A stretch of DNA of 64,000 bases. It comes from a virus. Numbering within the stretch: the stretch's first letter is position 1; the number at the start of each line of letters is the position of its first letter. Positions 5,729 to 64,000 of the stretch are shown here, piece by piece. The notes beneath the pieces are model-generated. The model was given only the letters and a program-made list of their open reading frames with translations, was not told the DNA's origin and searched no databases. Position numbers and translations under genes: made by a program. Where the stretch lies: the IMG/VR virus record IMGVR_UViG_3300035689_000004, positions 1-64,000 of that record; one strand, written 5' to 3'.

Positions 5729-6520
5729 ATGCACCAGCTAGCCCTGTTCAATACCATTGACAATAAGCCAATGGCGGACGATCGCATCCGCACCTACCGT
5801 GGCGACGCGATCGCGGTCCTGGCCAACCTACTGGCTAAGGGAACCACCTGGGACTATTGCCTAACCTCCCCTCCCTACTACGGCCAGATAGACTATGGCC
5901 ACGAAGGGCAACACGGGCTAGAGGGTAGCCTTGACGCCTACCTGGATACTCAGCAGCAGGTTTTTAGGCTGGTGTACCAAGGGTTAGCAGAAGGCGGGGT
6001 GTGCTGGATTGTGATAGGTGATACCAGCAACAACTACAGCCCGGTACGCGCCAAGGGGCAACGGCGACAAGCAGGAGAATGGCTCTACCGCCGCAGCCTG
6101 GAGGACGACTACCGCGAAAAGGAACCCTTGCTAGTGCCTATCCGCCTAGCGGAGCGGCTACGGGCTGATGGCTGGGTAATGCGGAAGATATTGATTTGGG
6201 ACAAGGGGCAAAGTAGCCAAGTAGGCAAGGGTGATGCGCCGCCTGAAACCCATGAGTATGTCCTGATGATGGGCAAGAGCGGCAAAAACGGGCGACCGAT
6301 GCTGAACACCAAGCCGCTGCGATCGTCGGTGCTGGTGCATCGTCCCTGTGGCCACTCTAACCACCCCTGCCCATTCCCTGACTCATTAGTCCACGAATTA
6401 TTGTCTAGCGCCACCGTGGCCGGAGCGACGGTGCTAGACCCTTACTTTGGCACCGGCACCACCGGACGGGTAGCGTCCCTGTTGGGCATGAAATCTATCG
6501 GCATTGACCTAGGAGCATAA
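5729..6520 (+). CDS. Site-specific DNA methyltransferase (amino-MTase, beta-type order)
   Basis: A 263-aa DNA modification enzyme that would methylate an exocyclic amino group (N4-cytosine or N6-adenine). The catalytic motif TSPPYY is at residues 46-51. The AdoMet-binding motif VLDPYFGTGTTG is near the C-terminus (about 235-246), giving the beta-class order (motif IV before motif I). SPPY is commonest in N4-cytosine enzymes, but the target base cannot be fixed. No restriction partner is adjacent, so it probably protects phage DNA. Residues 3-7, QLALF, resemble the sliding-clamp binding motif. The next gene starts directly after its stop. Confidence 0.92.
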   Translation: MHQLALFNTIDNKPMADDRIRTYRGDAIAVLANLLAKGTTWDYCLTSPPYYGQIDYGHEGQHGLEGSLDAYLDTQQQVFRLVYQGLAEGGVCWIVIGDTSNNYSPVRAKGQRRQAGEWLYRRSLEDDYREKEPLLVPIRLAERLRADGWVMRKILIWDKGQSSQVGKGDAPPETHEYVLMMGKSGKNGRPMLNTKPLRSSVLVHRPCGHSNHPCPFPDSLVHELLSSATVAGATVLDPYFGTGTTGRVASLLGMKSIGIDLGA

Positions 6521-7264
6521 ATGCTAGTCCTTGAAATTACTGAGAACACGGTCCTGAAGCCAGGGCCGGACCAAGCGATCGCCTACGATAAGGCAGCGGT
6601 AGTGAATGTCAGCAAGGGGCGATCGTTCCCATTGTTGGCCTATCAGCTATTGCACGGTCATGTGCATTTCACCATCGACCCGAAGCGGTTCGACCTAGTG
6701 AACCTGCACCCATCAGGCAGGAATACTTGGTGGGCATTCGCGGGACACGCTAGCGATCCATCAGGGTTTGGCTCAGGCAATGACCCCAAAGATGAGCCCC
6801 CAACTCGCCGGGACGGCCATCGAATTATTTTGCCAGGGTTTGAGAACGACTGCTCCAGCACTCAGTCAATCTCGACCAAGGCGCCTAACTTCACCTGGGG
6901 GGAAGCACTCCATATGCGCCCTGACGGTAGCTACCGCCACCCTGAAAATGCCTCTGTGGTGTACGGCATCATTCGGGTAGCAGAGGTGATGCAAGACATT
7001 AGGGAGCGGTTTAAGCGGCCCATTAAAATCAACTCCTGGTATCGGGACCCAGGCACTAATGCCCGCGTGGGGGGCGCTCGCTTTTCTACCCACATGAAGG
7101 GCCATGCGGTGGATTTTAATATCCCTGGGCTGCCTCCGGTAGATGTTTATAACGAGCTGGACCATTGGTGGGGCGGCCAGGGCGGGCTTGCCCGGGGTAA
7201 TGGGTTTTTCCATATCGACTGCCGGGGCAGCCGCGCTCGGTGGGACTACCCTGGGGTTAGGTAA
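6521..7264 (+). CDS. M15-family peptidoglycan peptidase (endolysin or tail-associated)
   Basis: A 247-aa protein whose C-terminal half is an M15A-type zinc D,D-carboxypeptidase/endopeptidase domain. The zinc ligands can be read directly: His191-x6-Asp198 (STHMKGHAVDF) and His231-x-Asp233 (FFHIDCRG), followed by the usual RARWDY. It would cut peptide cross-links in the host wall. The N-terminal 100 residues match no family I know. The ATG abuts the methyltransferase stop, so the two are coupled. It could be the lysis endolysin or part of the baseplate. Confidence 0.88.
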   Translation: MLVLEITENTVLKPGPDQAIAYDKAAVVNVSKGRSFPLLAYQLLHGHVHFTIDPKRFDLVNLHPSGRNTWWAFAGHASDPSGFGSGNDPKDEPPTRRDGHRIILPGFENDCSSTQSISTKAPNFTWGEALHMRPDGSYRHPENASVVYGIIRVAEVMQDIRERFKRPIKINSWYRDPGTNARVGGARFSTHMKGHAVDFNIPGLPPVDVYNELDHWWGGQGGLARGNGFFHIDCRGSRARWDYPGVR

Positions 7265-7266
7265 TT

Positions 7267-8349
7267 ATGAAAATTTATACCCTTGCCGGGGTGCCCTACG
7301 TCCCGGCAGTGACCGCTAGCGGCATTGTCTTAAGGAAAGCGGGCAGGCGATCGCCTGCCCCAGGACAGTTAGGACTATTTGACGCTCAGCACCAAGAAGG
7401 TGAGACCCGCACCAACCAAGCGGGCCACCAGGAGGTATTGCAGGGCGGACGGTGGCACCTCGCTGGAAGCCAGGGAGCGACGCCTACAGCACCCGCTACG
7501 CCCGCCGCCCAAGCTCAACCACAGGCACAGCAAACTCAACCACAGGTGCAGCAACAAGCGCCGACGATGGAAGGGCTCCATGCCCTGCACCAACAAGTCT
7601 CCCAAGGTACTCAAGGCGAGCAACAAGACCCCTTAGCGGGAATTGACCCCAAGGCGGTACTTAACAGCGCCTCCCCGGAAGCTGGGCAATTTGTAAACTT
7701 TCTCAAGCAGTCTGGCGACCCGGATACGTTAGTTGAGTTGCTTACCGAGTGGCCCGCTAGTTCCTGCAGGCAACAAGCAAAAGAATGGGAGTCTGCTGTT
7801 AAAGCCTATGACAGCTTTGGCGTTCAAAGCATAGAAGACATTTGCACACCTGACGATCTTGCTGAAGTATTTGGAGGTAAAAACCCACCTCCAAAAGACG
7901 TTTATGCAAAAGCCGTTTACGATGCCGTAGCCGGTGCCGCTCAAAACTTTTCCGAACTTAGCCAGCACGGCATCAACCCGCTTGAGGAAGCTTGGGGCTA
8001 TGTTTATGAAGACAAGCCATCACTCCAAGCCCTTAGGAAGGATTTTGCAGGCGATCTGAACTCCGCAACCGATCAAGCGTCTAAACGCAAAGCAGAGCTT
8101 GCCCTTGGCTTGCTGGATAGCGTCATCAATGCACTGCCAGCCATCGAAAAAGCCAGTAGTCAGATGGAGTCTTTTCATGAAAAGCTGCCCGAAAACTTTT
8201 TTGATGCAGACTCTAAGCAGGAGGCGATCGCGCTACAAAAACTTTATTCGCTTGGAACAAGCCCAACCGCCAGGAAGGTAGCAAGAACCTTGGCACGAGA
8301 TGATGCCGCCTTCGACTCGATTATGAATAGAGCTGGTTCCCATGGATAA
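7267..8349 (+). CDS. Phage protein with QLGLF motif and GRW motif, paralogue of the 16504 gene
   Basis: A 360-aa protein of unknown role. Its first 67 residues are nearly identical to those of the gene at 16504, with QLGLF at 34-38 and a G-E-T-R...Q-E-V-L...G-R-W motif at 46-65. A Gln/Pro/Ala-rich linker (about 70-100) and an alpha-helical C-terminal region follow, the latter only distantly similar to the paralogue (shared N-FFDxDS/T-like and SAR/TARK patches). It overlaps the next gene by 8 bp and sits among baseplate genes. Confidence 0.8.
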   Translation: MKIYTLAGVPYVPAVTASGIVLRKAGRRSPAPGQLGLFDAQHQEGETRTNQAGHQEVLQGGRWHLAGSQGATPTAPATPAAQAQPQAQQTQPQVQQQAPTMEGLHALHQQVSQGTQGEQQDPLAGIDPKAVLNSASPEAGQFVNFLKQSGDPDTLVELLTEWPASSCRQQAKEWESAVKAYDSFGVQSIEDICTPDDLAEVFGGKNPPPKDVYAKAVYDAVAGAAQNFSELSQHGINPLEEAWGYVYEDKPSLQALRKDFAGDLNSATDQASKRKAELALGLLDSVINALPAIEKASSQMESFHEKLPENFFDADSKQEAIALQKLYSLGTSPTARKVARTLARDDAAFDSIMNRAGSHG

Positions 8350-15144: not shown

Positions 15145-16500
15145 ATGGCTGATAATGTACGGTTTCTTACCTGGCAGGAAGTATTGGACCAGATGCTATC
15201 CTTCCTGCCACCCCAATGGCGGGCCAACTTTACCGGCAAGCTATTTAAGCGCCTCCTGGTAGCCTTCAGCCTATCAATGGAGGGGTTGTATGGGTTTCTC
15301 TCTCACGTGCTGCGGATGAGCATTCTAGCCACCAGTGAGGGGCAATGGCTCAGGCAATTGGTGACAGGCTTCGGGATGAGCGCCAATGCCGGTATCGCGG
15401 CGGTGGCGGCGGTGCGCTTTGAACGCTACGGGGCGACAACAACCGCAGTCACTATCCCAGCGGGGACAGCGGTACAAACCAGTGGTGGTATTGTCTTTAC
15501 CACCAACTCCTCAGCAACCCTGGCGATCGCTCAAAGTTCTGTCCTGGTGGTTTGCACCTGCAGCCAGCCGGGGACGATTGGCAATGTGGTTGGGGGCAGC
15601 ATCAACGCGCTGCGATCGCCGATTGTAGGCATTGACAACGTGGTGAACCTGGACCCGGCGGTGGGTGGTGCCGACCCGGAGGCAGATGCGTCCATTAAAG
15701 CCAGGGTGCCCCAGCATTTAGCAATGTTGCACCGGGCGACGATACCAGCGACCGAGGCGGCAATCCTGGGCCAGCCCGCGTTATTCCCGTCAGTGGTAAG
15801 CTTTATCACCGAGCGGAGATCGGACCTACCCGGCTACGTGCGAGGGGTGCTAGCGGACGCCAGTGGCGGCGACCTATTCCGCCCGGGCACCTGGCAGGCG
15901 ACGGACCTACCCGGCACCTACTATGTCGTGACTAGCCAGACGCCCCAGGGGTTAATTGAGGTGGGTTGGCCCTGCAAGCGCTTCGGTGTAGTTAGCCAAG
16001 CCACGGACGGCAGAGAACTATGGAACCCGTCTGACTCGGCGGTGACCGTCTCCCAGGGCAATTACCGATGGTTTTATGACACCAGCAATAACCGCCTCTA
16101 TGCCCGGGGCAATGGCGGCAACCTGAATAGCCTGGAAATGGTGATCTACGCGGGGGTGGTATGGCAGGCGGTACAGGAGCTAGAGACCAAGTGGGTGGCG
16201 GCAGGGGTTGGCGTTGATGTGATTGTCCCCACCACCAGCCGGGTGGCGTTCGTCCTGTCCTATGCCCTGGAACCCGGCTACACCGCCAGCACCGTGGAGG
16301 CCGCCCTGGCCGCCGCGGTCAACAGTTACGTTGGCACCCTGCGAATGGGCCAAACCTTAGAGGTAGAAGCGCTCTATGGTGCCCTGGGGGGTGTCCCCGG
16401 TGCCGGTGGCATACTGCTTATCTCCCCTGCCACCAACGTGACAGTGGAGCGCGGCTTCATCATTCGGGTGGCATCGGTGCAAGTTATCAGACGAGGTTAA
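15145..16500 (+). CDS. Baseplate J-like protein (gp6/gp47 family)
   Basis: A 451-aa wedge component. Typical J features are the early FKRLLVAFS...GLYGFLSHVLRMS helices, the central strands AVRFERYGATTTAVTIPAGTAV..., GTIGNVVGGSINALRSP and the GADPEADASIKAR motif. Position after gp25 confirms it. HIP1 sites are present. Confidence 0.88.
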   Translation: MADNVRFLTWQEVLDQMLSFLPPQWRANFTGKLFKRLLVAFSLSMEGLYGFLSHVLRMSILATSEGQWLRQLVTGFGMSANAGIAAVAAVRFERYGATTTAVTIPAGTAVQTSGGIVFTTNSSATLAIAQSSVLVVCTCSQPGTIGNVVGGSINALRSPIVGIDNVVNLDPAVGGADPEADASIKARVPQHLAMLHRATIPATEAAILGQPALFPSVVSFITERRSDLPGYVRGVLADASGGDLFRPGTWQATDLPGTYYVVTSQTPQGLIEVGWPCKRFGVVSQATDGRELWNPSDSAVTVSQGNYRWFYDTSNNRLYARGNGGNLNSLEMVIYAGVVWQAVQELETKWVAAGVGVDVIVPTTSRVAFVLSYALEPGYTASTVEAALAAAVNSYVGTLRMGQTLEVEALYGALGGVPGAGGILLISPATNVTVERGFIIRVASVQVIRRG

Positions 16501-16503
16501 GCC

Positions 16504-17643
16504 ATGAAAATTTATACCCTTGCCGGAGTGCCTTACGTCCCGGTGGTGACCACTAGCGGCATCGTCCTGAGAAAAGCGGGCAAGCGATCGCCTGCCCCAG
16601 GACAACTAGGACTATTTGACGCCCAGCACCAAGAGGGTGAAACCCGCACTAACCAAGCGGGCCACCAGGAAGTATTGCAGGGCGGACGGTGGCACCTAGC
16701 CGACAAGCCTGGACCGGCTCAGCAACAGCCAGCACAGGCGCAGCAGCCAGCACAGGCGCAGCAGCCAGCACAACCACAGCAGTCAGTGCCTACCATAGAA
16801 AGCCTCCATGCCTTGCATCAGCAGGTTGCCCAAACCCATGGCATAGCGCCTAGTCAAAACGATCCATTGGCAGCGATCGCGTCAGAAGCATTGCTCAACA
16901 CAGCTTCCCCTGAGTCAGCCCAATTCGTCCAATTTCTGAAACAGCTAAAGAGCCCAGAAACATTCTTAGAACTCATCGACCCGGAAGAAGCGTCCGACAA
17001 GGATCTAAAGCAAAGGGAAGCCAAGGCACAGCACATCGTCAATTTATTCGGCCAATTCGGCGTTAACGAGTCCCACGAAATATGGGATTTATTAGACAAA
17101 GTGCCGGGAATACTTGAGGCTAACGTCCCGCCCGAACAGCCACACTTCAAGCCAATCTTTGACTTAATTAGCCAGTCTGCCGCCGGACTTGAAGAGCTGC
17201 ACAACTCTAAATCTTTGGCCCTAGAGTACGTCCAAGAGTACAACAAAAGCGAGCTTAAAAGCTTGCGCAAGGAAATGGAGCAGGATATGACAAGCGAAAC
17301 CGATCCAAAAGAACGACGCAAATATGAGCTGAGTATCAAGCTTGCCGACAATGTTTTAGAAAATTATCCGGCAATAAGTAAAGAGCTTAAAAAAATTCGG
17401 GATATGGGCGATCGCATGCCTGACGAATTCTTCGACCATGACACCGTTGATGACGCCAAGCAAAATTTGACAACTATCCAGGCTGCCATGACTCCATCGG
17501 CTCGCAAAATCGGCGCAATATTGTCTCCCTCCAAAGAAATTAGAGACAACGAAATTATTAACGATGATGACGAGCTATTGCCGTCCGAGAAAGCTGACGC
17601 TGCGCGGGATCACTATTGGGACACGGTCGCAAAGCTGCGTTAA
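16504..17643 (+). CDS. Paralogue of the 7267 protein, with QLGLF and GRW motifs
   Basis: A 379-aa protein of unknown role. The first about 66 residues and the DNA encoding them are nearly identical to the gene at 7267, while the remainder is a divergent helical domain. It carries QLGLF (residues 34-38), the E-T-R...G-R-W motif (46-65), and a linker made by three 18-bp repeats (16723-16776, QQPAQA units). The C-terminal 250 residues are acidic and helical. Close to the baseplate J gene (3-bp gap). Confidence 0.8.
   Translation: MKIYTLAGVPYVPVVTTSGIVLRKAGKRSPAPGQLGLFDAQHQEGETRTNQAGHQEVLQGGRWHLADKPGPAQQQPAQAQQPAQAQQPAQPQQSVPTIESLHALHQQVAQTHGIAPSQNDPLAAIASEALLNTASPESAQFVQFLKQLKSPETFLELIDPEEASDKDLKQREAKAQHIVNLFGQFGVNESHEIWDLLDKVPGILEANVPPEQPHFKPIFDLISQSAAGLEELHNSKSLALEYVQEYNKSELKSLRKEMEQDMTSETDPKERRKYELSIKLADNVLENYPAISKELKKIRDMGDRMPDEFFDHDTVDDAKQNLTTIQAAMTPSARKIGAILSPSKEIRDNEIINDDDELLPSEKADAARDHYWDTVAKLR
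16723..16776 (+). repeat. Three tandem 18-bp repeats in a coding linker
   Basis: Three in-frame copies of an 18-bp unit (16723, 16741, 16759) encode Gln/Pro/Ala-rich linker sequence. Copy number could vary without breaking the frame. Confidence 0.8.
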
Positions 17644-30456: not shown

Positions 30457-30536
30457 GTTGTTTATTGCCAATAGACACCAGTTTGGCCCACGAAAGTAAC
30501 ACCTACGAAAGTATTACCAATGGAGGTAATTTTACC

Positions 30537-31787
30537 ATGAAATGGTTTGCTCATGACACAGATATGCACCGTAATCGCAAAATCCGTAAGCTTTTCCGCG
30601 TTCACGGAGGGGTTGCTTATGGCTTCTGGTGCGTGCTGCTAGAAAAGCTCTATGCCGCAGAAGGCGATTTTCAGATACCCGTCGATCATCTTTGGCTGGA
30701 GGACATCGCGGATGACATGAAAATGTCTGACTATCGAACCCCCTGCCGCATCCTTGACACTATGGCAGAAATAGGACTTATAGATCGTCAGTTGTGGGAA
30801 GAGCATATTATCTACAGCCCAGCGATCGCCAAAAGAGGCGACGGATATATGGTTAAACGCGCTCAGGAAGCAGAGAAAAAACGGCGCTACCGAGAAAAGC
30901 AACGGGAATTACTGACTACTGCTACAGAAGCATTGTCCACGGTGGACACCACAGGGACAGTAGGACAGAAGTTTATAATGTCCCCTGCAGATCCAGATCC
31001 AGATCCAGATCCAGATCCAGAGATCGATAAAAACTTATTAGAAAGCTATATAGAGTGTCCGGACATCGAACCGCTTTGTAGCGCTGACGCGCTACCCGAT
31101 CGCGACTCCATCTCAAAAATCAAAGAACCCGAATTATCCGAACCGGCTAAACAGGAAGCAGCCGATACCGTTACCCCTCTGGATAGCCAAGCAGAAAAAC
31201 CTGGGGCTCAACCAAAACCCCGGACAAGAAAAAAATCTACCGCCGGCGGCAAAACCAAAACCGAAGCCCAACACTATCCAGAAGCTTTCGCAAAATTCTG
31301 GAATGACTACCGCAATCACCTGAAGGCGATTGAAAGCAACGTCTGGGTTACCCAGAAGCGCCCAGAAGCAATTAAGGTATGGGACAGCCTGGTAGCCTCT
31401 GGAGTGCCTTTAGAGACGATTCTAGAGGGCGCTCAGGCATGGTTTGAACTTACCCTGCGAATGATGAAAGCCAAAGGCAAGGTTTACGGTGCTCCCCATT
31501 GCTGTCGGTTCTTGTCTGGCCGGTTATGGGAGAGTGCCTTGGACGACAAGCGATCGCAGCCTACCGCTGCCCTTCAGTCATCCGCCCGTCCCCAGGCAAA
31601 ACGCGACGGGCAGGTAGAGATTACGGGGCTGCTGATGGAGCTACGGCGGACGGTGCTATTGCCGGAGGACTGGCAAACCCGTACTGGCAAACAGCTATCA
31701 ACCCAGCTAGGGCCGGAGGACTCCGCTGACTATGCCGCATTCTTAAGACAAGAACGCGATCGCCTGATGAGCGGCGCTATTTTTTAG
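30537..31787 (+). CDS. DnaD/DUF4373-like replication protein
   Basis: A 416-aa protein. The N-terminal part (MKWFAHDTDMHRNRKIRKLFRVHGGVAYGFWCVLLEKLYA...) matches the Lin1244/Lin1753-type domain of phage replication initiation or helicase-loader proteins. The ATG at 30537 is chosen because GGAGG precedes it (the longer TTG-start frame is unlikely). A run of Asp-Pro pairs is encoded by the hexamer repeat at 30988-31021. C-terminal region (residues 270-340) is helical. It heads an operon that ends at 33509. Confidence 0.8.
   Translation: MKWFAHDTDMHRNRKIRKLFRVHGGVAYGFWCVLLEKLYAAEGDFQIPVDHLWLEDIADDMKMSDYRTPCRILDTMAEIGLIDRQLWEEHIIYSPAIAKRGDGYMVKRAQEAEKKRRYREKQRELLTTATEALSTVDTTGTVGQKFIMSPADPDPDPDPDPEIDKNLLESYIECPDIEPLCSADALPDRDSISKIKEPELSEPAKQEAADTVTPLDSQAEKPGAQPKPRTRKKSTAGGKTKTEAQHYPEAFAKFWNDYRNHLKAIESNVWVTQKRPEAIKVWDSLVASGVPLETILEGAQAWFELTLRMMKAKGKVYGAPHCCRFLSGRLWESALDDKRSQPTAALQSSARPQAKRDGQVEITGLLMELRRTVLLPEDWQTRTGKQLSTQLGPEDSADYAAFLRQERDRLMSGAIF
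30988..31021 (+). repeat. Tandem CAGATC hexamer repeat
   Basis: Five complete CAGATC units plus a partial one encode alternating Asp and Pro residues in the replication protein. It is a linker that could expand or contract without frameshift. Confidence 0.85.
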
Positions 31788-33530: not shown

Positions 33531-33571
33531 GAACGCCATGGGACGGTTCCTATGGCGTTCTTTGCATTTTT
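33531..33571 (+). terminator. Terminator of the replication operon
   Basis: A 9-bp perfect stem (33531-33539 with 33552-33560) and TTTGCATTTTT tail. It overlaps the end of the recombinase gene by its second arm. Confidence 0.78.
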
Positions 33572-34869
33572 AGCCGCACCTCTACCACTTCATTCCCCTG
33601 CAAGATCACCCGCTCCACCAATTCCGCGTAGATTTCCCGACGCCTTACCACCGGCAATAGGTTTAGGTCCGCCTGCGCGATCGCCATTGTCTTTTCCCGT
33701 AACTCTTGCTGGTTGGCGCTGGTATGGCTTTCCATCCCTGCCAGGTTTTGTAGTTCCGCCTCGATGGCAGCAATTTCTTCAGCGATCGCCGCCCGGTGGG
33801 CCAAAGGTCGAAGTGCCTCTAGTTCTCGCTCCAATGCGATCGCCTGCGGGTTTGCCGTTGATGGCTGTAGCATATCCGCCGCGATCGCCTCAGCCGCTTC
33901 TGCCAATGCCTCCTGCATGGCTGCTTCAACTACCTCTTGACGGCAGGAAAGGGTATAGGCGCATTCCCGGTTGCGATAGTCATAGCGGGCGGCACAGGCA
34001 AAGTACCGATGGCCTTTCGAGACAGTGCTGCGGCATCGGGTGCCACAAACACAGGACACAATCGGCGGCACCGGGTAGATGCGCCCCTGATTATGGCCGC
34101 GCAGTTGTCGGTTGAGCCCAATTAGGTAATCAATCCGCTTGTACTCCTCTTCGGTGATAAGCGCTTGGTGGGTGTTGTAGCGCCATTCATCGGTGCTGGC
34201 ATAGTGCAAATGCCCACGCAAGGCAGCACTACGCAGCCACCACCGCCAGCCCGCCCGGGACTTATAAAACCCGTGCTCCTGTTCCATGTAGACCGATAAC
34301 CCCGCTACATTGCCGTGCTGCATGTAGTGTTCTACCGCCGCCCTTGCCTTTGCCCACTCTGGCCCTGGCTCATAGCGGCTACCGTCCGGCGATCTCTGGT
34401 AGCCAAAGGGAGGTGGGCCACACATGGGGCGTCCCTGTCGCCTCATCTGGGCATAGGCGCGCTGGATACGTTCGCCTAGTTCTACTGAGTAATAATGCGC
34501 CATCAGTGATTTAACGCCGGTGGTGAGCAACCCTGAGGCGGTCTGGAGGGTGATCTCCTGTCCAGTGGTTAGCTCCTTCACCTGCACGCCCGCCGCTTCC
34601 AATTGGGCTAGGCTCTCCATCGAATAAACCGTATCCCGTGCCCATCGGGTCCACTCGATGACCCATACTGTAACTTGATGACGTTGACCACGGAGGTCTA
34701 ATGCTCGTTCCACCATGCGCAAAAATTCAGGGCGATCGCGCCTACGCCCCGACAAATTTTCAGCAAACAGTTCATCGAACTCAAGCTGTTGCTGGAATTG
34801 CTGCATCTGTAATTCCAGGCTTTGCTCTTCAGTCGATACCCGCCCGTAGCAAAGTTGATAGTGTGCCAT
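33550..34869 (-). CDS. Large serine recombinase (integrase-like)
   Basis: A 439-aa serine recombinase. The catalytic Ser12 lies in CYGRVSTEEQS, and the resolvase core (about 1-140) is followed by the recombinase domain (QRAYAQMRRQG...CGPPPFGYQR) and a Cys zinc ribbon (CVCGTRCRSTVS). The ATG at 34869 follows GGAG/AGGGG; the TTG at 34887 lacks support. It would catalyse insertion and excision between att sites. A coupled attP is expected next to it, but cannot be recognised without the host junction. The C-terminal coiled coil is typical. Confidence 0.9.
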   Translation of the reverse strand: MAHYQLCYGRVSTEEQSLELQMQQFQQQLEFDELFAENLSGRRRDRPEFLRMVERALDLRGQRHQVTVWVIEWTRWARDTVYSMESLAQLEAAGVQVKELTTGQEITLQTASGLLTTGVKSLMAHYYSVELGERIQRAYAQMRRQGRPMCGPPPFGYQRSPDGSRYEPGPEWAKARAAVEHYMQHGNVAGLSVYMEQEHGFYKSRAGWRWWLRSAALRGHLHYASTDEWRYNTHQALITEEEYKRIDYLIGLNRQLRGHNQGRIYPVPPIVSCVCGTRCRSTVSKGHRYFACAARYDYRNRECAYTLSCRQEVVEAAMQEALAEAAEAIAADMLQPSTANPQAIALERELEALRPLAHRAAIAEEIAAIEAELQNLAGMESHTSANQQELREKTMAIAQADLNLLPVVRRREIYAELVERVILQGNEVVEVRLKMQRTP

Positions 34870-35017
34870 GGTCAATCCCCTCTCCAATTTCAGCGTACTA
34901 CGCCGCCTCTAAAGGGAGGTGCCATGGTGAGAGCTGCTCAGAGTTCTAGCTATGGCACAACTAGCCTAAATTAAAGTGTTATCGTAAGATATACACAAAT
35001 CGAACCCAGGAGGCAGT

Positions 35018-54335: not shown

Positions 54336-54465
54336 ACGCGCCGAACTATTGAAGCTAAAGGAAATGAGCGATGAGGAACGGCTTAGCTACCTGCTAGCCC
54401 GCCACGCGCTTATCCCCCTTGGCAGCCCACTGCCGCCTATCCATCAAGTGCTATGCGAACCCTAA
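54316..54465 (+). CDS. Small hypothetical protein
   Basis: A 49-aa helical protein starting MMNISPERAELL, overlapping both the previous stop and the helicase start. Coupled translation is likely. Confidence 0.6.
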   Translation: MMNISPERAELLKLKEMSDEERLSYLLARHALIPLGSPLPPIHQVLCEP

Positions 54466-60068: not shown

Positions 60069-60179
60069 CAATTCAACTTTAGGGGTTACTTATCCATAGG
60101 CACCTTTGGCATTTCTCCGTAGTAAAAACGCTATAGACGTGCTAAAAATACACTTGTGTTTTATTTTTGCTACACGCCC

Positions 60180-61292
60180 ATGCCTGGCATTCGCACCCTA
60201 TACCCCCGTGGCAGTAAAGAAGACGGTTTAGGCGTATTCCTAGCCAAGATGGGCAGACACAAGCTTCTCACCCCTGCCCAAGAGATAGAGCTAGGGCGAC
60301 AGGTGCAGGAGGGGCTATGGGCCGCGGCAACGGTCCTGGACGATCGCGATCGCCGTCAGCCACTACAGGAAGATTTCGAGCGCCAGCACCGTAGCGAGCA
60401 CGGTGAATTACCAACTCAGGTGGAAATTGACGCTTACTTTGACGAGGCACGGCAGCGGTTGATTGATACCTACCGCCAGGGCCACCCGGAGGCGACAGAG
60501 GCGGAGATGCGCCGACACTTTGAACGGGTAGCCCGGCAGGGCAAGAAAGCTTGCGACCAGATGGTAATCCGCAACCTGCGCCTAGTAGTGAGTGTGGCCC
60601 ACAAATATTCCAAGCACGGGCTAGAGCTAGGCGACTTGATCCAGGAGGGCGTTGTTGGCCTAGTGCGAGGGGTAGAAAAATTTGACCCGGCGAAGGGTTA
60701 TAAATTTTCGACCTATGCCTACTGGTGGATTCGTCAGGCGATCACCCGGGCCATCAGCAACAAAGCCAAGTCGATCCGCCTACCGATCCATGTTGTGGAC
60801 GTACTCAACAAGGTGCGCCGCTATGGCCATGTTTTTCGGGCTCAGCACGGACGCTACCCAAGCGATCGCGAAGTGGCCGAGCATTTCTCCTCCCGCAATG
60901 GCGTTTCTGCCGATGAATGGCTACGACGCTTGCAACGGTTCAAGGCGATGAATATCGCGCCGACCAGCCTGGACCACGTGGTAGATAACGGCGATCGCGC
61001 TAAAAGCACAATCCACGACCTTGTAGGGGGTATTGATGATAGCTCTATCAGTTTGTTTGGAGATCAGGTTATCGAGGAATTGGGCGCCGCTGTGGTGGGC
61101 TTGCCGACCAGGGAGCGGCAGGTGGTGGAACTAAAGTACGGGCTACTCAGCGGTACGCCTAAATCCCTCAGCGAAGTGGCTAGGGAGATGGATGCACCCC
61201 TGGCGACGGTACGAACGATCCACGTCAGGGCATTACGGCGATTGTCTAGGGAGCGGCGGGGCTTGCGATCGCTGCTCGAAGGACTAGATTGA
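60180..61292 (+). CDS. Phage-encoded sigma-70 family factor
   Basis: A 370-aa sigma factor (60156 GTG adds eight residues and is less likely). Region 1.2 starts [26 protein letters not shown]; region 2 has the [15 protein letters not shown], the -10-contact [20 protein letters not shown], and the core-binding [18 protein letters not shown]; region 4 ends with the [22 protein letters not shown]. It is close to cyanobacterial SigA/group 2 sigmas. It would redirect host RNA polymerase, possibly to the GAACC...TAAAAT sites. Confidence 0.9.
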
Positions 61293-61333: not shown

Positions 61334-64000
61334 ATGGCCATCAATACCCTGCGCCCGCTGCGCCCCCGGCGGGCTATTTTATTGCGCAAAGACGCCCAGT
61401 TTGACTTGTTTGGCGGACAGGCAGAAGTAAAGCCGACAGCGGCGGCCAAGCGCCGGGAGCGAATTGCAGCAGGCTGGGGGGCTAAACCTAAAACCCAGCT
61501 AGGGCTATTTGGGCAGGATGACGATGTACCTGCCACCAAAGGCAAGGTAAAACCTAAGGCGCCTAAGGCACCCGTCGCGCCCAAGGTGCCAGAGGTAAAA
61601 GCGCCAGAGGTAAAAGCACCTGCTACACCTAAGGCGCCGTCTATGGCAGCAAAGGGACCCAAGGAGGGCGACACTCGCATTAACCGGGCAGGCAATCAGG
61701 AAGTATTGCGGGCAGGACGATGGCGGCTAGCCAGCAACCCTAAGGTAGTGGCTAAGGATAAGGGTAGTGCCGCGATCGTCCCGGTGGTTCAGGAGATTAA
61801 GGAGGAGAAGCCGGTAGAGAAACCAGCGGCAGCACCGGCGAAGGTAGAAGAGGTTAAGCCTGAACCCGTTGAGGTGCAGCAAGAGGTGAAGCCCGCCGAG
61901 CCAACTCCCGCGATCGCCGAGGAGAAACCTAGTCAGCAAGGATTGCCCCGGGCAACCATCCACCATGAGCGGCTTAATCGTTTCAAAAATCTTGCCAATA
62001 ACGCTAGTGCGCTTCCCCCGGGTTCTAATAAAGAATCCATGAGAGCCGCTTTCCGGAAACTTTCTGGGGCGGTAAAAGATGAAGACAAAGTAGTACAAAG
62101 ATGGCTGCGCGACTGGGAGAAGGAAGGGCTATCGCCTGATGAGGCGATGCAAAGAGCTTATCGGTATGGTCAAGGGTTAGATCCCGTTCAGTCAGCGGAA
62201 GCACCAGCAACACCCACCACGCCGGAGCAACCTGCCGCTGAGCCAACCCCGGCGATCGCGGTTGATGCTGACTTTGCTTCCACCAAGCAACAGAAGCAGC
62301 GCATCAAGATTAACCAGGATGTAGAGGCTCTGCTTAGCCAGAAGCCGGACGGACCTTATACCAAGGATGAATTAATCCTGCTTGCCAAGTATTCTGGCAA
62401 GGGCGGCATCACTGAAGATGACGGCAGCCTAAGCGAGTACTACACCCGTCCTGACGTTGCCAAGCACCTGACCGATATTCTCTACCAGCATGGATTTAAG
62501 GGCGGTGCCGTCCTAGAACCTAGCTGCGGTAATGGCGTATTTTTGCATCAGTTCAAAGACGATCCCAACGTGTTGCCGGTAGGGGTGGAGCTAAGTGAAA
62601 CCAGCGGCAAGGCGGCGGCAGCCCTGAACCCACACGCCGAAGTGACAGCCGGGGCATCCTTTGAACGGTTCTGCCTAGACAATCCAGACTTTAGCCCTGA
62701 TGCTGTAATCGGCAATGTTCCCTTTGGCACCCGCACCGTAGGCGGCGACCTAGAGGCATTTCGCAAGGTAGGGAAAGGATGGAAGGACAATGGCGACTTT
62801 TTCGTTCATGAAAGCCTATCCAGGCTGAAGCCAAGCGGCATCATGGCATTGATCGTGCCCCATGGCATCACCACCGGCAGCACCCATCAACGCCTGCGGG
62901 AGGAGTTGATGAAGCAAGGGCGGGTGATTGGCGTTCATCGTCTCCCTAATACCGCCTTTGCCCATACCAACACCAAGACTATTACCGATGTGCTGGTAAT
63001 TCAAAAACATCCTGACGTCATCCTTAACGCGATCGCTGACGGGCAGAGTGATGTTATCGCCAAAACCCGAGACGATGCCTTTATCCATGGCAAATACTTT
63101 GAGGCTCACCCCGAACATGTCCTAGGCGAATACCAGGAGACCAGTAACCAGTTTGGCGGTAAGTCATTTACCATCAACGGCAAGATCGAAGACGCGCTTG
63201 CCAGCGCCCAAGGGTTTACGCCAGACGTGAGCTATGACGGGCTACAAACAGATGGGGCGGAGGAGCGATCGCCGCAAAAGGGCGACACCCGTTATATCAA
63301 TGGCAGACTGTACCGGCTAGAGGGTAACCCAGCCCGTTGGCACCTTGTCGAGCAATCTGAACCGGTTGCCGAGGAAGTGGACGCCTCCGGCTATGGTGCT
63401 GAGTCGATGGCAGATGCAGAGGCGCAGCTATTGGATGCGGGGCGACGGGTCCTAATCCACCCAGATAACTTACAGGCATACCGAAACCTTGCCCACCAAC
63501 ACCTACCCAAGGCGGAGGCGATGGCGTTTGATGCCGCGATCGCGGCGAGTAATGCAGCAGGTTCTAGCATCGACAGGGAAAAGCTTGCCCACGCCATGCT
63601 GCTAGCAGACCACATTGAAAGGCTGCAGAAGGGCGATGCGGACCCGATGCAGGTAGAGAAAGCGCTTAACATGCTGCAGGGCTACAGAGAGGCGCACGGC
63701 AACCCCTCGACCGACAAAACATTGATTGGGCTGTCTAGCCAATTCCCTGCGCTGTTGCGGCTACAGGGATGTTTTGACGAGAACGACAAGATCAGTGATT
63801 ACTTCACCGACCATGACAAAGTTACCGCCCAGGTAAAGCGAACCCATAGTGAAGCGGGCGCCGCTATGGCAGAAGCCTATCGCGCCGCCGGGGGCGAAGC
63901 GGTTGACCTGGACATGATCCGAGCTCAGTTAGATACAACGATGACTGATGCGGACCTAGAGGCAACCCTGGTTGCTGATCCAACGGTTGGCTATATCAAT
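61334..64000 (+). CDS. N6-adenine DNA methyltransferase-type protein, 3' end beyond the window
   Basis: The frame is open to the window end (889 codons, no stop). Domains in order: a basic start with QFDLF (22-26) and QLGLF (55-59); a Lys/Pro/Ala-rich linker; a G-D-T-R...G-R-W motif (about 112-133); a helical region; then an AdoMet-binding methyltransferase with motif I VLEPSCGNGVF (393-403) and motif IV GNVPFG (460-465); a second GDTR...RW motif near residue 650. The GNVPFG motif is typical of the N6-adenine methyltransferase domain of DarB-type proteins, which join methyltransferase and helicase. The C-terminal part is unseen. Confidence 0.82.
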   Translation, partial: MAINTLRPLRPRRAILLRKDAQFDLFGGQAEVKPTAAAKRRERIAAGWGAKPKTQLGLFGQDDDVPATKGKVKPKAPKAPVAPKVPEVKAPEVKAPATPKAPSMAAKGPKEGDTRINRAGNQEVLRAGRWRLASNPKVVAKDKGSAAIVPVVQEIKEEKPVEKPAAAPAKVEEVKPEPVEVQQEVKPAEPTPAIAEEKPSQQGLPRATIHHERLNRFKNLANNASALPPGSNKESMRAAFRKLSGAVKDEDKVVQRWLRDWEKEGLSPDEAMQRAYRYGQGLDPVQSAEAPATPTTPEQPAAEPTPAIAVDADFASTKQQKQRIKINQDVEALLSQKPDGPYTKDELILLAKYSGKGGITEDDGSLSEYYTRPDVAKHLTDILYQHGFKGGAVLEPSCGNGVFLHQFKDDPNVLPVGVELSETSGKAAAALNPHAEVTAGASFERFCLDNPDFSPDAVIGNVPFGTRTVGGDLEAFRKVGKGWKDNGDFFVHESLSRLKPSGIMALIVPHGITTGSTHQRLREELMKQGRVIGVHRLPNTAFAHTNTKTITDVLVIQKHPDVILNAIADGQSDVIAKTRDDAFIHGKYFEAHPEHVLGEYQETSNQFGGKSFTINGKIEDALASAQGFTPDVSYDGLQTDGAEERSPQKGDTRYINGRLYRLEGNPARWHLVEQSEPVAEEVDASGYGAESMADAEAQLLDAGRRVLIHPDNLQAYRNLAHQHLPKAEAMAFDAAIAASNAAGSSIDREKLAHAMLLADHIERLQKGDADPMQVEKALNMLQGYREAHGNPSTDKTLIGLSSQFPALLRLQGCFDENDKISDYFTDHDKVTAQVKRTHSEAGAAMAEAYRAAGGEAVDLDMIRAQLDTTMTDADLEATLVADPTVGYIN

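Follow-up and report, generated by a model that had tools for sequence, protein, structure and literature searches.

The stretch analysed here (the window) belongs to a virus record of 92.5 kb, of which it covers the first 64 kb. We observed pentapeptides that resemble the bacterial sliding-clamp motif in several of its predicted proteins, all encoded on the plus strand. QLALF (5735 to 5749) forms residues 3-7, read from the sequence, of a 263-aa DNA methyltransferase of the N6_N4_Mtase type (5729 to 6520; PF01555, E=4e-29). QLGLF occupies residues 34-38 of a 360-aa protein (gene 7267 to 8349, motif 7366 to 7380), whose relatives have QLGLF or QLELF, and again residues 34-38 of its 379-aa paralogue (gene 16504 to 17643, motif 16603 to 16617). 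The body of the 7267 protein has no Pfam or PHROG match, and the paralogue has only a weak, below-cut-off Pfam methyltransferase match. A 2493-aa DarB-like polyvalent protein starts at 61289, runs through the end of the window at 64000 and continues to record position 68770. It bears QFDLF from residue 37 (61397 to 61411; QLGLF in the relatives G001 and G002) and a second QLGLF from residue 70 (61496 to 61510), in a segment missing from the same two relatives; with the ATG start at 61334, these become residues 22 and 55. The motifs of the 5729, 7267, 16504 and 61334 proteins lie exactly where the first-pass annotation had placed them. Two ORFs beyond the window, at record positions 69174 and 80539, each contain a further QLGLF.

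The host of this phage is most likely a cyanobacterium, given the abundance of GCGATCGC, which we take to be HIP1, a repeat characteristic of cyanobacterial genomes: it occurs 125 times in the window against 1.3 expected, and 174 times across the whole record. A serine recombinase gene and a replication-initiator-like (Lin1244_N) gene, at 33550-34887 and 30465-31787, suggest that the phage is temperate and may rely on enzymes of the host for its replication.

The QLxLF motifs of this phage are real and above chance level. Across 104 non-overlapping predicted genes (29,128 aa), QLxLF occurred six times compared to a shuffled mean of 0.42, and none of 500 shuffles yielded at least six. The looser pattern Qxx(L/M)F occurred 13 times in the same genes against 5.1 expected; isolated loose matches are therefore often due to chance, and we hold the loose QxxLF matches in the ORFs at 15145, 52440, 71220 and 87786 as unproven or chance. 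The last of these is a natural example of a chance match, as relatives with 98-99% identity have A/TSGLF in place of its QSGLF.

The first-pass annotation described the bearers as four unrelated proteins, and this did not hold. Alignments (A1, A2) revealed an N-terminal module common to the 7267, 16504, 69174 and 80539 ORFs, which spans residues 1-65 of the 7267 protein and has the approximate consensus GVPY...GIVLRKAGRR.PSPGQLGLF....GDT......RW. The 61289 protein bears a reduced form, ILLRKDAQFDLF followed by the GDT...RW element. Five of the six QLxLF copies fall in this one module, which rules out four independent cases. By alignment, the copies in the 7267, 16504, 61289, 69174 and 80539 proteins thus represent a single module on unrelated bodies. 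This N-terminus was also found on unrelated bodies across the relatives, and in G001 and G002 the 61289-type N-terminus heads a different, shorter protein; the distribution points to what is mostly one mobile module. The 80539 bearer is prohead-protease-like (PHROG head maturation protease, a weak match at E=0.0014). The C-terminus of the 69174 protein (record 69174-70244) contains a WEGYEAVGMKKKRGKMVPNCVP segment, and similar segments occur in many cyanophage proteins.

The module keeps the core of its pentapeptide. In an alignment of nine module sequences, Q, L4 and F are among ten invariant columns, and across nine related contigs (G000-G008) these residues are unchanged in every module copy; the second residue is L, with F in one case, while A, G, E and D all occur as the third. 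At the nucleotide level, the codons of the motif turn over synonymously in 29 copies from the window phage and its relatives (CAG/CAA, CTA/TTA, TTA/CTA/TTG/CTG and TTT/TTC), and since Q, L4 and F stay fixed while their codons vary, these residues are under selection. The loss of Q, L or F in close homologues, which the earlier annotation had proposed to look for, was not seen in any of the relatives, all of which retain the three residues. In the 7267 protein, the linker that holds the motif (residues 26-41) has a pLDDT below 50, within an AF2 model of low confidence throughout (pLDDT 51).

The QLALF of the 5729 methyltransferase is separate from the shared module. It sits on an N-terminal extension of ~14 residues that is missing in four distantly related phage enzymes of the family (alignment A4), and it begins 2 residues after the start of the protein, whose structure model is too poor to be informative. 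All six relatives at 94-96% identity retain QLALF. We recovered 79 other phage methyltransferases and found no QxxLF within the first 60 residues of any of them, which rules out an N-terminal motif as a general trait of this family. Seven of the 79 (3 of 38 after dereplication) have Qxx(L/M/I)(F/L) within the last 15 residues, a C-terminal counterpart that is only suggestive. QxxL(L/F)-like peptides such as QEGLL, QVNLL and QIDMF are present at or near the C-terminus of the methyltransferases of L145, L146, L180, L198, L201 and L212.

The DarB-like protein at 61289 combines an N6-methyltransferase and an SNF2 helicase in one chain (PF02384, PF00176, PF00271) and matches the DarB-like family phrog_10089 (E=2e-111). 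A sigma-70 family factor (PF04542, PF04545) is encoded directly upstream, at 60156-61292, and the ORF downstream is Ulx-like (phrog_1629). As in the P1 DarB dyad, an N6-methyltransferase is thus joined to an SF2 helicase, with a Ulx-like gene adjacent. A search of viral contigs with the window DarB alone gave no matches, and an alignment of eight DarB sequences had no usable conserved stretch. For the wider search we used as query a methyltransferase-domain alignment of the window DarB and that of Bordetella phage PHB04 (35% identical), which recovered 52 diverse viral loci. Dereplication by shared 4-mers resulted in 27 proteins with a long N-terminal extension; 16 DarBs with a short N-terminus served for comparison.

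We observed a marked enrichment of QxxLF in the long extensions, where it is present in 25 of the 27 proteins. The 8,906 extension residues hold 43 copies compared to a shuffled mean of 1.25 and a maximum of 6 in 1000 shuffles; because the proteins are related, and most of them share a homologous leading motif, the 43 copies did not all arise independently. The remainder of the same proteins has 3 copies in 48,242 residues (6.4 expected), and the short-N proteins show no excess (2 versus 4.0 expected). The enrichment is specific to spacing, with 43 occurrences of Qx2(L/M)F and 1-11 of the other spacings, and Q accounts for 43 of the 97 residues at motif position 1, against 4.1 expected. Unlike these extensions, the N-terminal region of P1 DarB lacks QxxLF. 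A general DarB trait is therefore ruled out, and the motif is not needed for DarB function generally, since short-N proteins including P1 DarB do without it.

The leading motif often occurs in the context MIILF.KSQLALFDAPVHVAAH, and the N-terminus of the PHB04 DarB contains LLTKAQLALFDTP; later copies read QADLF, QGDLF, QASLF, QPDLF and similar. The leading motif is embedded in a longer stretch that is conserved as well, KSQLALFDAPVHVA, so some of its conservation may have another purpose. Outside this context, the third position is S, D, T or N in 17 of 24 motifs, which agrees with QL(S/D)LF, the consensus for clamp binding. In phage L061, a single protein with ART-PolyVal domains carries both QLSLF and KPSPGQLGLF, which supports a link to polyvalent proteins. 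The SF2 helicases adjoining DarB (L105:15772-20307 and homologues) often end in (S/D/G/A)L(F/L), as in QGGLF, QDALF and QPSLL. We dropped these ~1,500-residue helicases and their tails as evidence for clamp binding, as Q is present in just 4 of 13, and the window's own helicase homologue at 54453 lacks such a tail.

Outside the window, at record 78416-79540 (L002:18416-19540), the phage encodes a 374-aa DnaN beta clamp with all three clamp domains (PF00712, PF02767, PF02768). Four relatives encode it at 91-95% identity, and a fifth has a partial copy with 89% identity. In comparison to Salmonella DnaN, with which it shares 28% overall identity, 10 of the 16 cleft residues are identical (binomial P about 0.004) and 4 are conservative replacements. 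The set of cleft residues was taken in part from a published description (PMC3716654). The differences include R246Q and S346P. As judged from this comparison, the peptide-binding cleft of the phage clamp is largely intact.

Taken together, these data suggest that the QxxLF peptides are beta-sliding-clamp-binding motifs, a reading that we consider likely (probability roughly 0.7) though unproven. It draws on the spacing-specific enrichment in the DarB extensions, on the fixation of Q, L4 and F under synonymous turnover, and on the phage's own three-domain clamp with its conserved cleft residues. The sole confirmed bacterial match to the module in a genome scan, RAPSPGQLGLFGG in the MutS of Archangium lansinium, also argues for it: the match lies just after the ATPase domain, and the clamp motif of MutS is located in the region behind that domain. 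A further argument is the preference for S, D, T or N at the third position together with the identity of QLGLF to the E. coli Pol II motif, QL(S/D)LF being the beta-clamp consensus (PMC3716654). Likewise, transposases of mobile elements are already known to bind the clamp through QLxLF (PMC4549789). Q1, L4 and F5 of the phage motifs recur in Pol II (QLGLF), UmuC (QLNLF) and these transposases. In contrast to the bacterial clamp clients, the phage motif is on DarB-like and other proteins, is often N-terminal, occurs in 1-3 copies, and its binding is a prediction. One bearer, the prohead-protease-like 80539 protein, would be an odd clamp client and speaks against this reading.

The motifs are placed in N-terminal extensions or in a linker that is probably disordered. 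From there, Q would dock beside the hydrophobic cleft of a DnaN-type clamp and L-F would insert into it. Such docking could keep both enzymes, the methyltransferase and the DarB-like methyltransferase-helicase, attached to phage DNA during replication, so that they would modify or remodel it at the fork. The motif-bearing proteins would be DNA-modifying and probably delivered from the capsid, and if DarB-like proteins enter with the DNA as in P1, the first clamp they meet must be that of the host; later in infection, the phage's own clamp could serve too. To our knowledge, there is no settled account of the way in which DarB-type proteins shield incoming phage DNA. T4 gp45 belongs to a different clamp family, and its role with gp33 and gp55 is in late transcription, unlike the role proposed for the window phage. 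The arrangements are alike in that phage proteins dock on a phage-encoded clamp (PMC9690074). DNMT1 and PCNA offer another parallel, in which a DNA methyltransferase docks on a clamp through a peptide and acts on new DNA (PMC9690074); the phage motif and clamp are of bacterial type, and the function suggested here follows this example by analogy alone. The survey in which polyvalent proteins were defined makes no mention of DnaN or of a sliding clamp (PMC5512222), and we found no report of a link between DarB and the clamp in the literature searched, the coverage of which takes in few subscription papers.

The first-pass annotation had proposed that the proteins may be brought to the host clamp. 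A clamp-type motif is strongly supported by the DarB comparison, and the host clamp becomes just one possible target: since the phage encodes its own, the partner may be the host clamp, the phage clamp or both. That the partner is the phage DnaN only is a narrower form of clamp docking, so that the two confidences overlap, and we hold it to be doubtful. The conservation of the phage clamp among relatives and of its cleft would fit such a restriction. Against it, the clamp gene is absent from 26 of 27 other records searched (several of them fragments), nearly all of which have motif-bearing proteins, and the host clamp would therefore be the sole candidate there.

The main rival to clamp docking, which remains the best-supported explanation, is that QLGLF is part of a capsid-targeting signal, such that the module marks proteins for the prohead and binds scaffold, portal or protease. 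We considered this because the first 30 residues of P1 DarB direct its packaging into the head (PMC9024508) and because the module is found on the prohead-protease-like 80539 protein; its presence on unrelated bodies would also suit a shared signal. In 24 loci of long-N DarBs, 17 DarB N-termini have an adjacent hydrophobic-K(S/A/G) element, and in 15 of these QxxLF follows it. However, the same element occurs at the N-terminus of 30 other proteins, none of which has QxxLF after it, which makes a role of QxxLF as a general packaging tag improbable. Together with the lack of QxxLF in the P1 DarB targeting region, this makes the hydrophobic element the better candidate for a packaging tag and QxxLF a separate feature. 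The extra motifs, at varied positions and mostly with S, D, T or N third, also argue against a capsid signal, which we regard as unlikely overall. In the window phage, where element and motif nearly always co-occur, QLGLF may still have a packaging role. In PHB04-like phages (L089, L091, L096, L099, L105 and similar), many proteins have an N- or C-terminal hydrophobic-K(S/A) element, for example MKPILFLKAS, a candidate tag for packaging or processing.

Chance or neutral hitch-hiking of the pentapeptide within a duplicated module is very improbable: it would be compatible with the concentration of QLxLF in one homologous module, with the near-chance level of loose QxxLF elsewhere and with the non-conserved match at 87786, but not with the fixed Q, L and F, the strong, spacing-specific enrichment across many other phages, or the retention of the motif in diverged paralogues and in DarB-like proteins that are ~35% identical over the methyltransferase domain.

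More broadly, we see about even odds that there is a large, apparently unreported group of DarB-like proteins with 1-3 N-terminal clamp motifs, in which an injected methyltransferase-helicase would dock on the host or phage clamp at the fork, and that phages reuse the docking module on otherwise unrelated proteins. If so, an antirestriction enzyme would ride the replication clamp and modify or remodel DNA during copying, a concrete and testable route, and phage DarB-like proteins would join the short list of mobile-element proteins that exploit the universal clamp cleft. Adjoining the clamp gene of this phage, at record 79722-80462 (L003:4723-5463), is a DpdA gene (7-deazapurine in DNA, PF23859), a possible candidate for a DNA-modification antirestriction gene.
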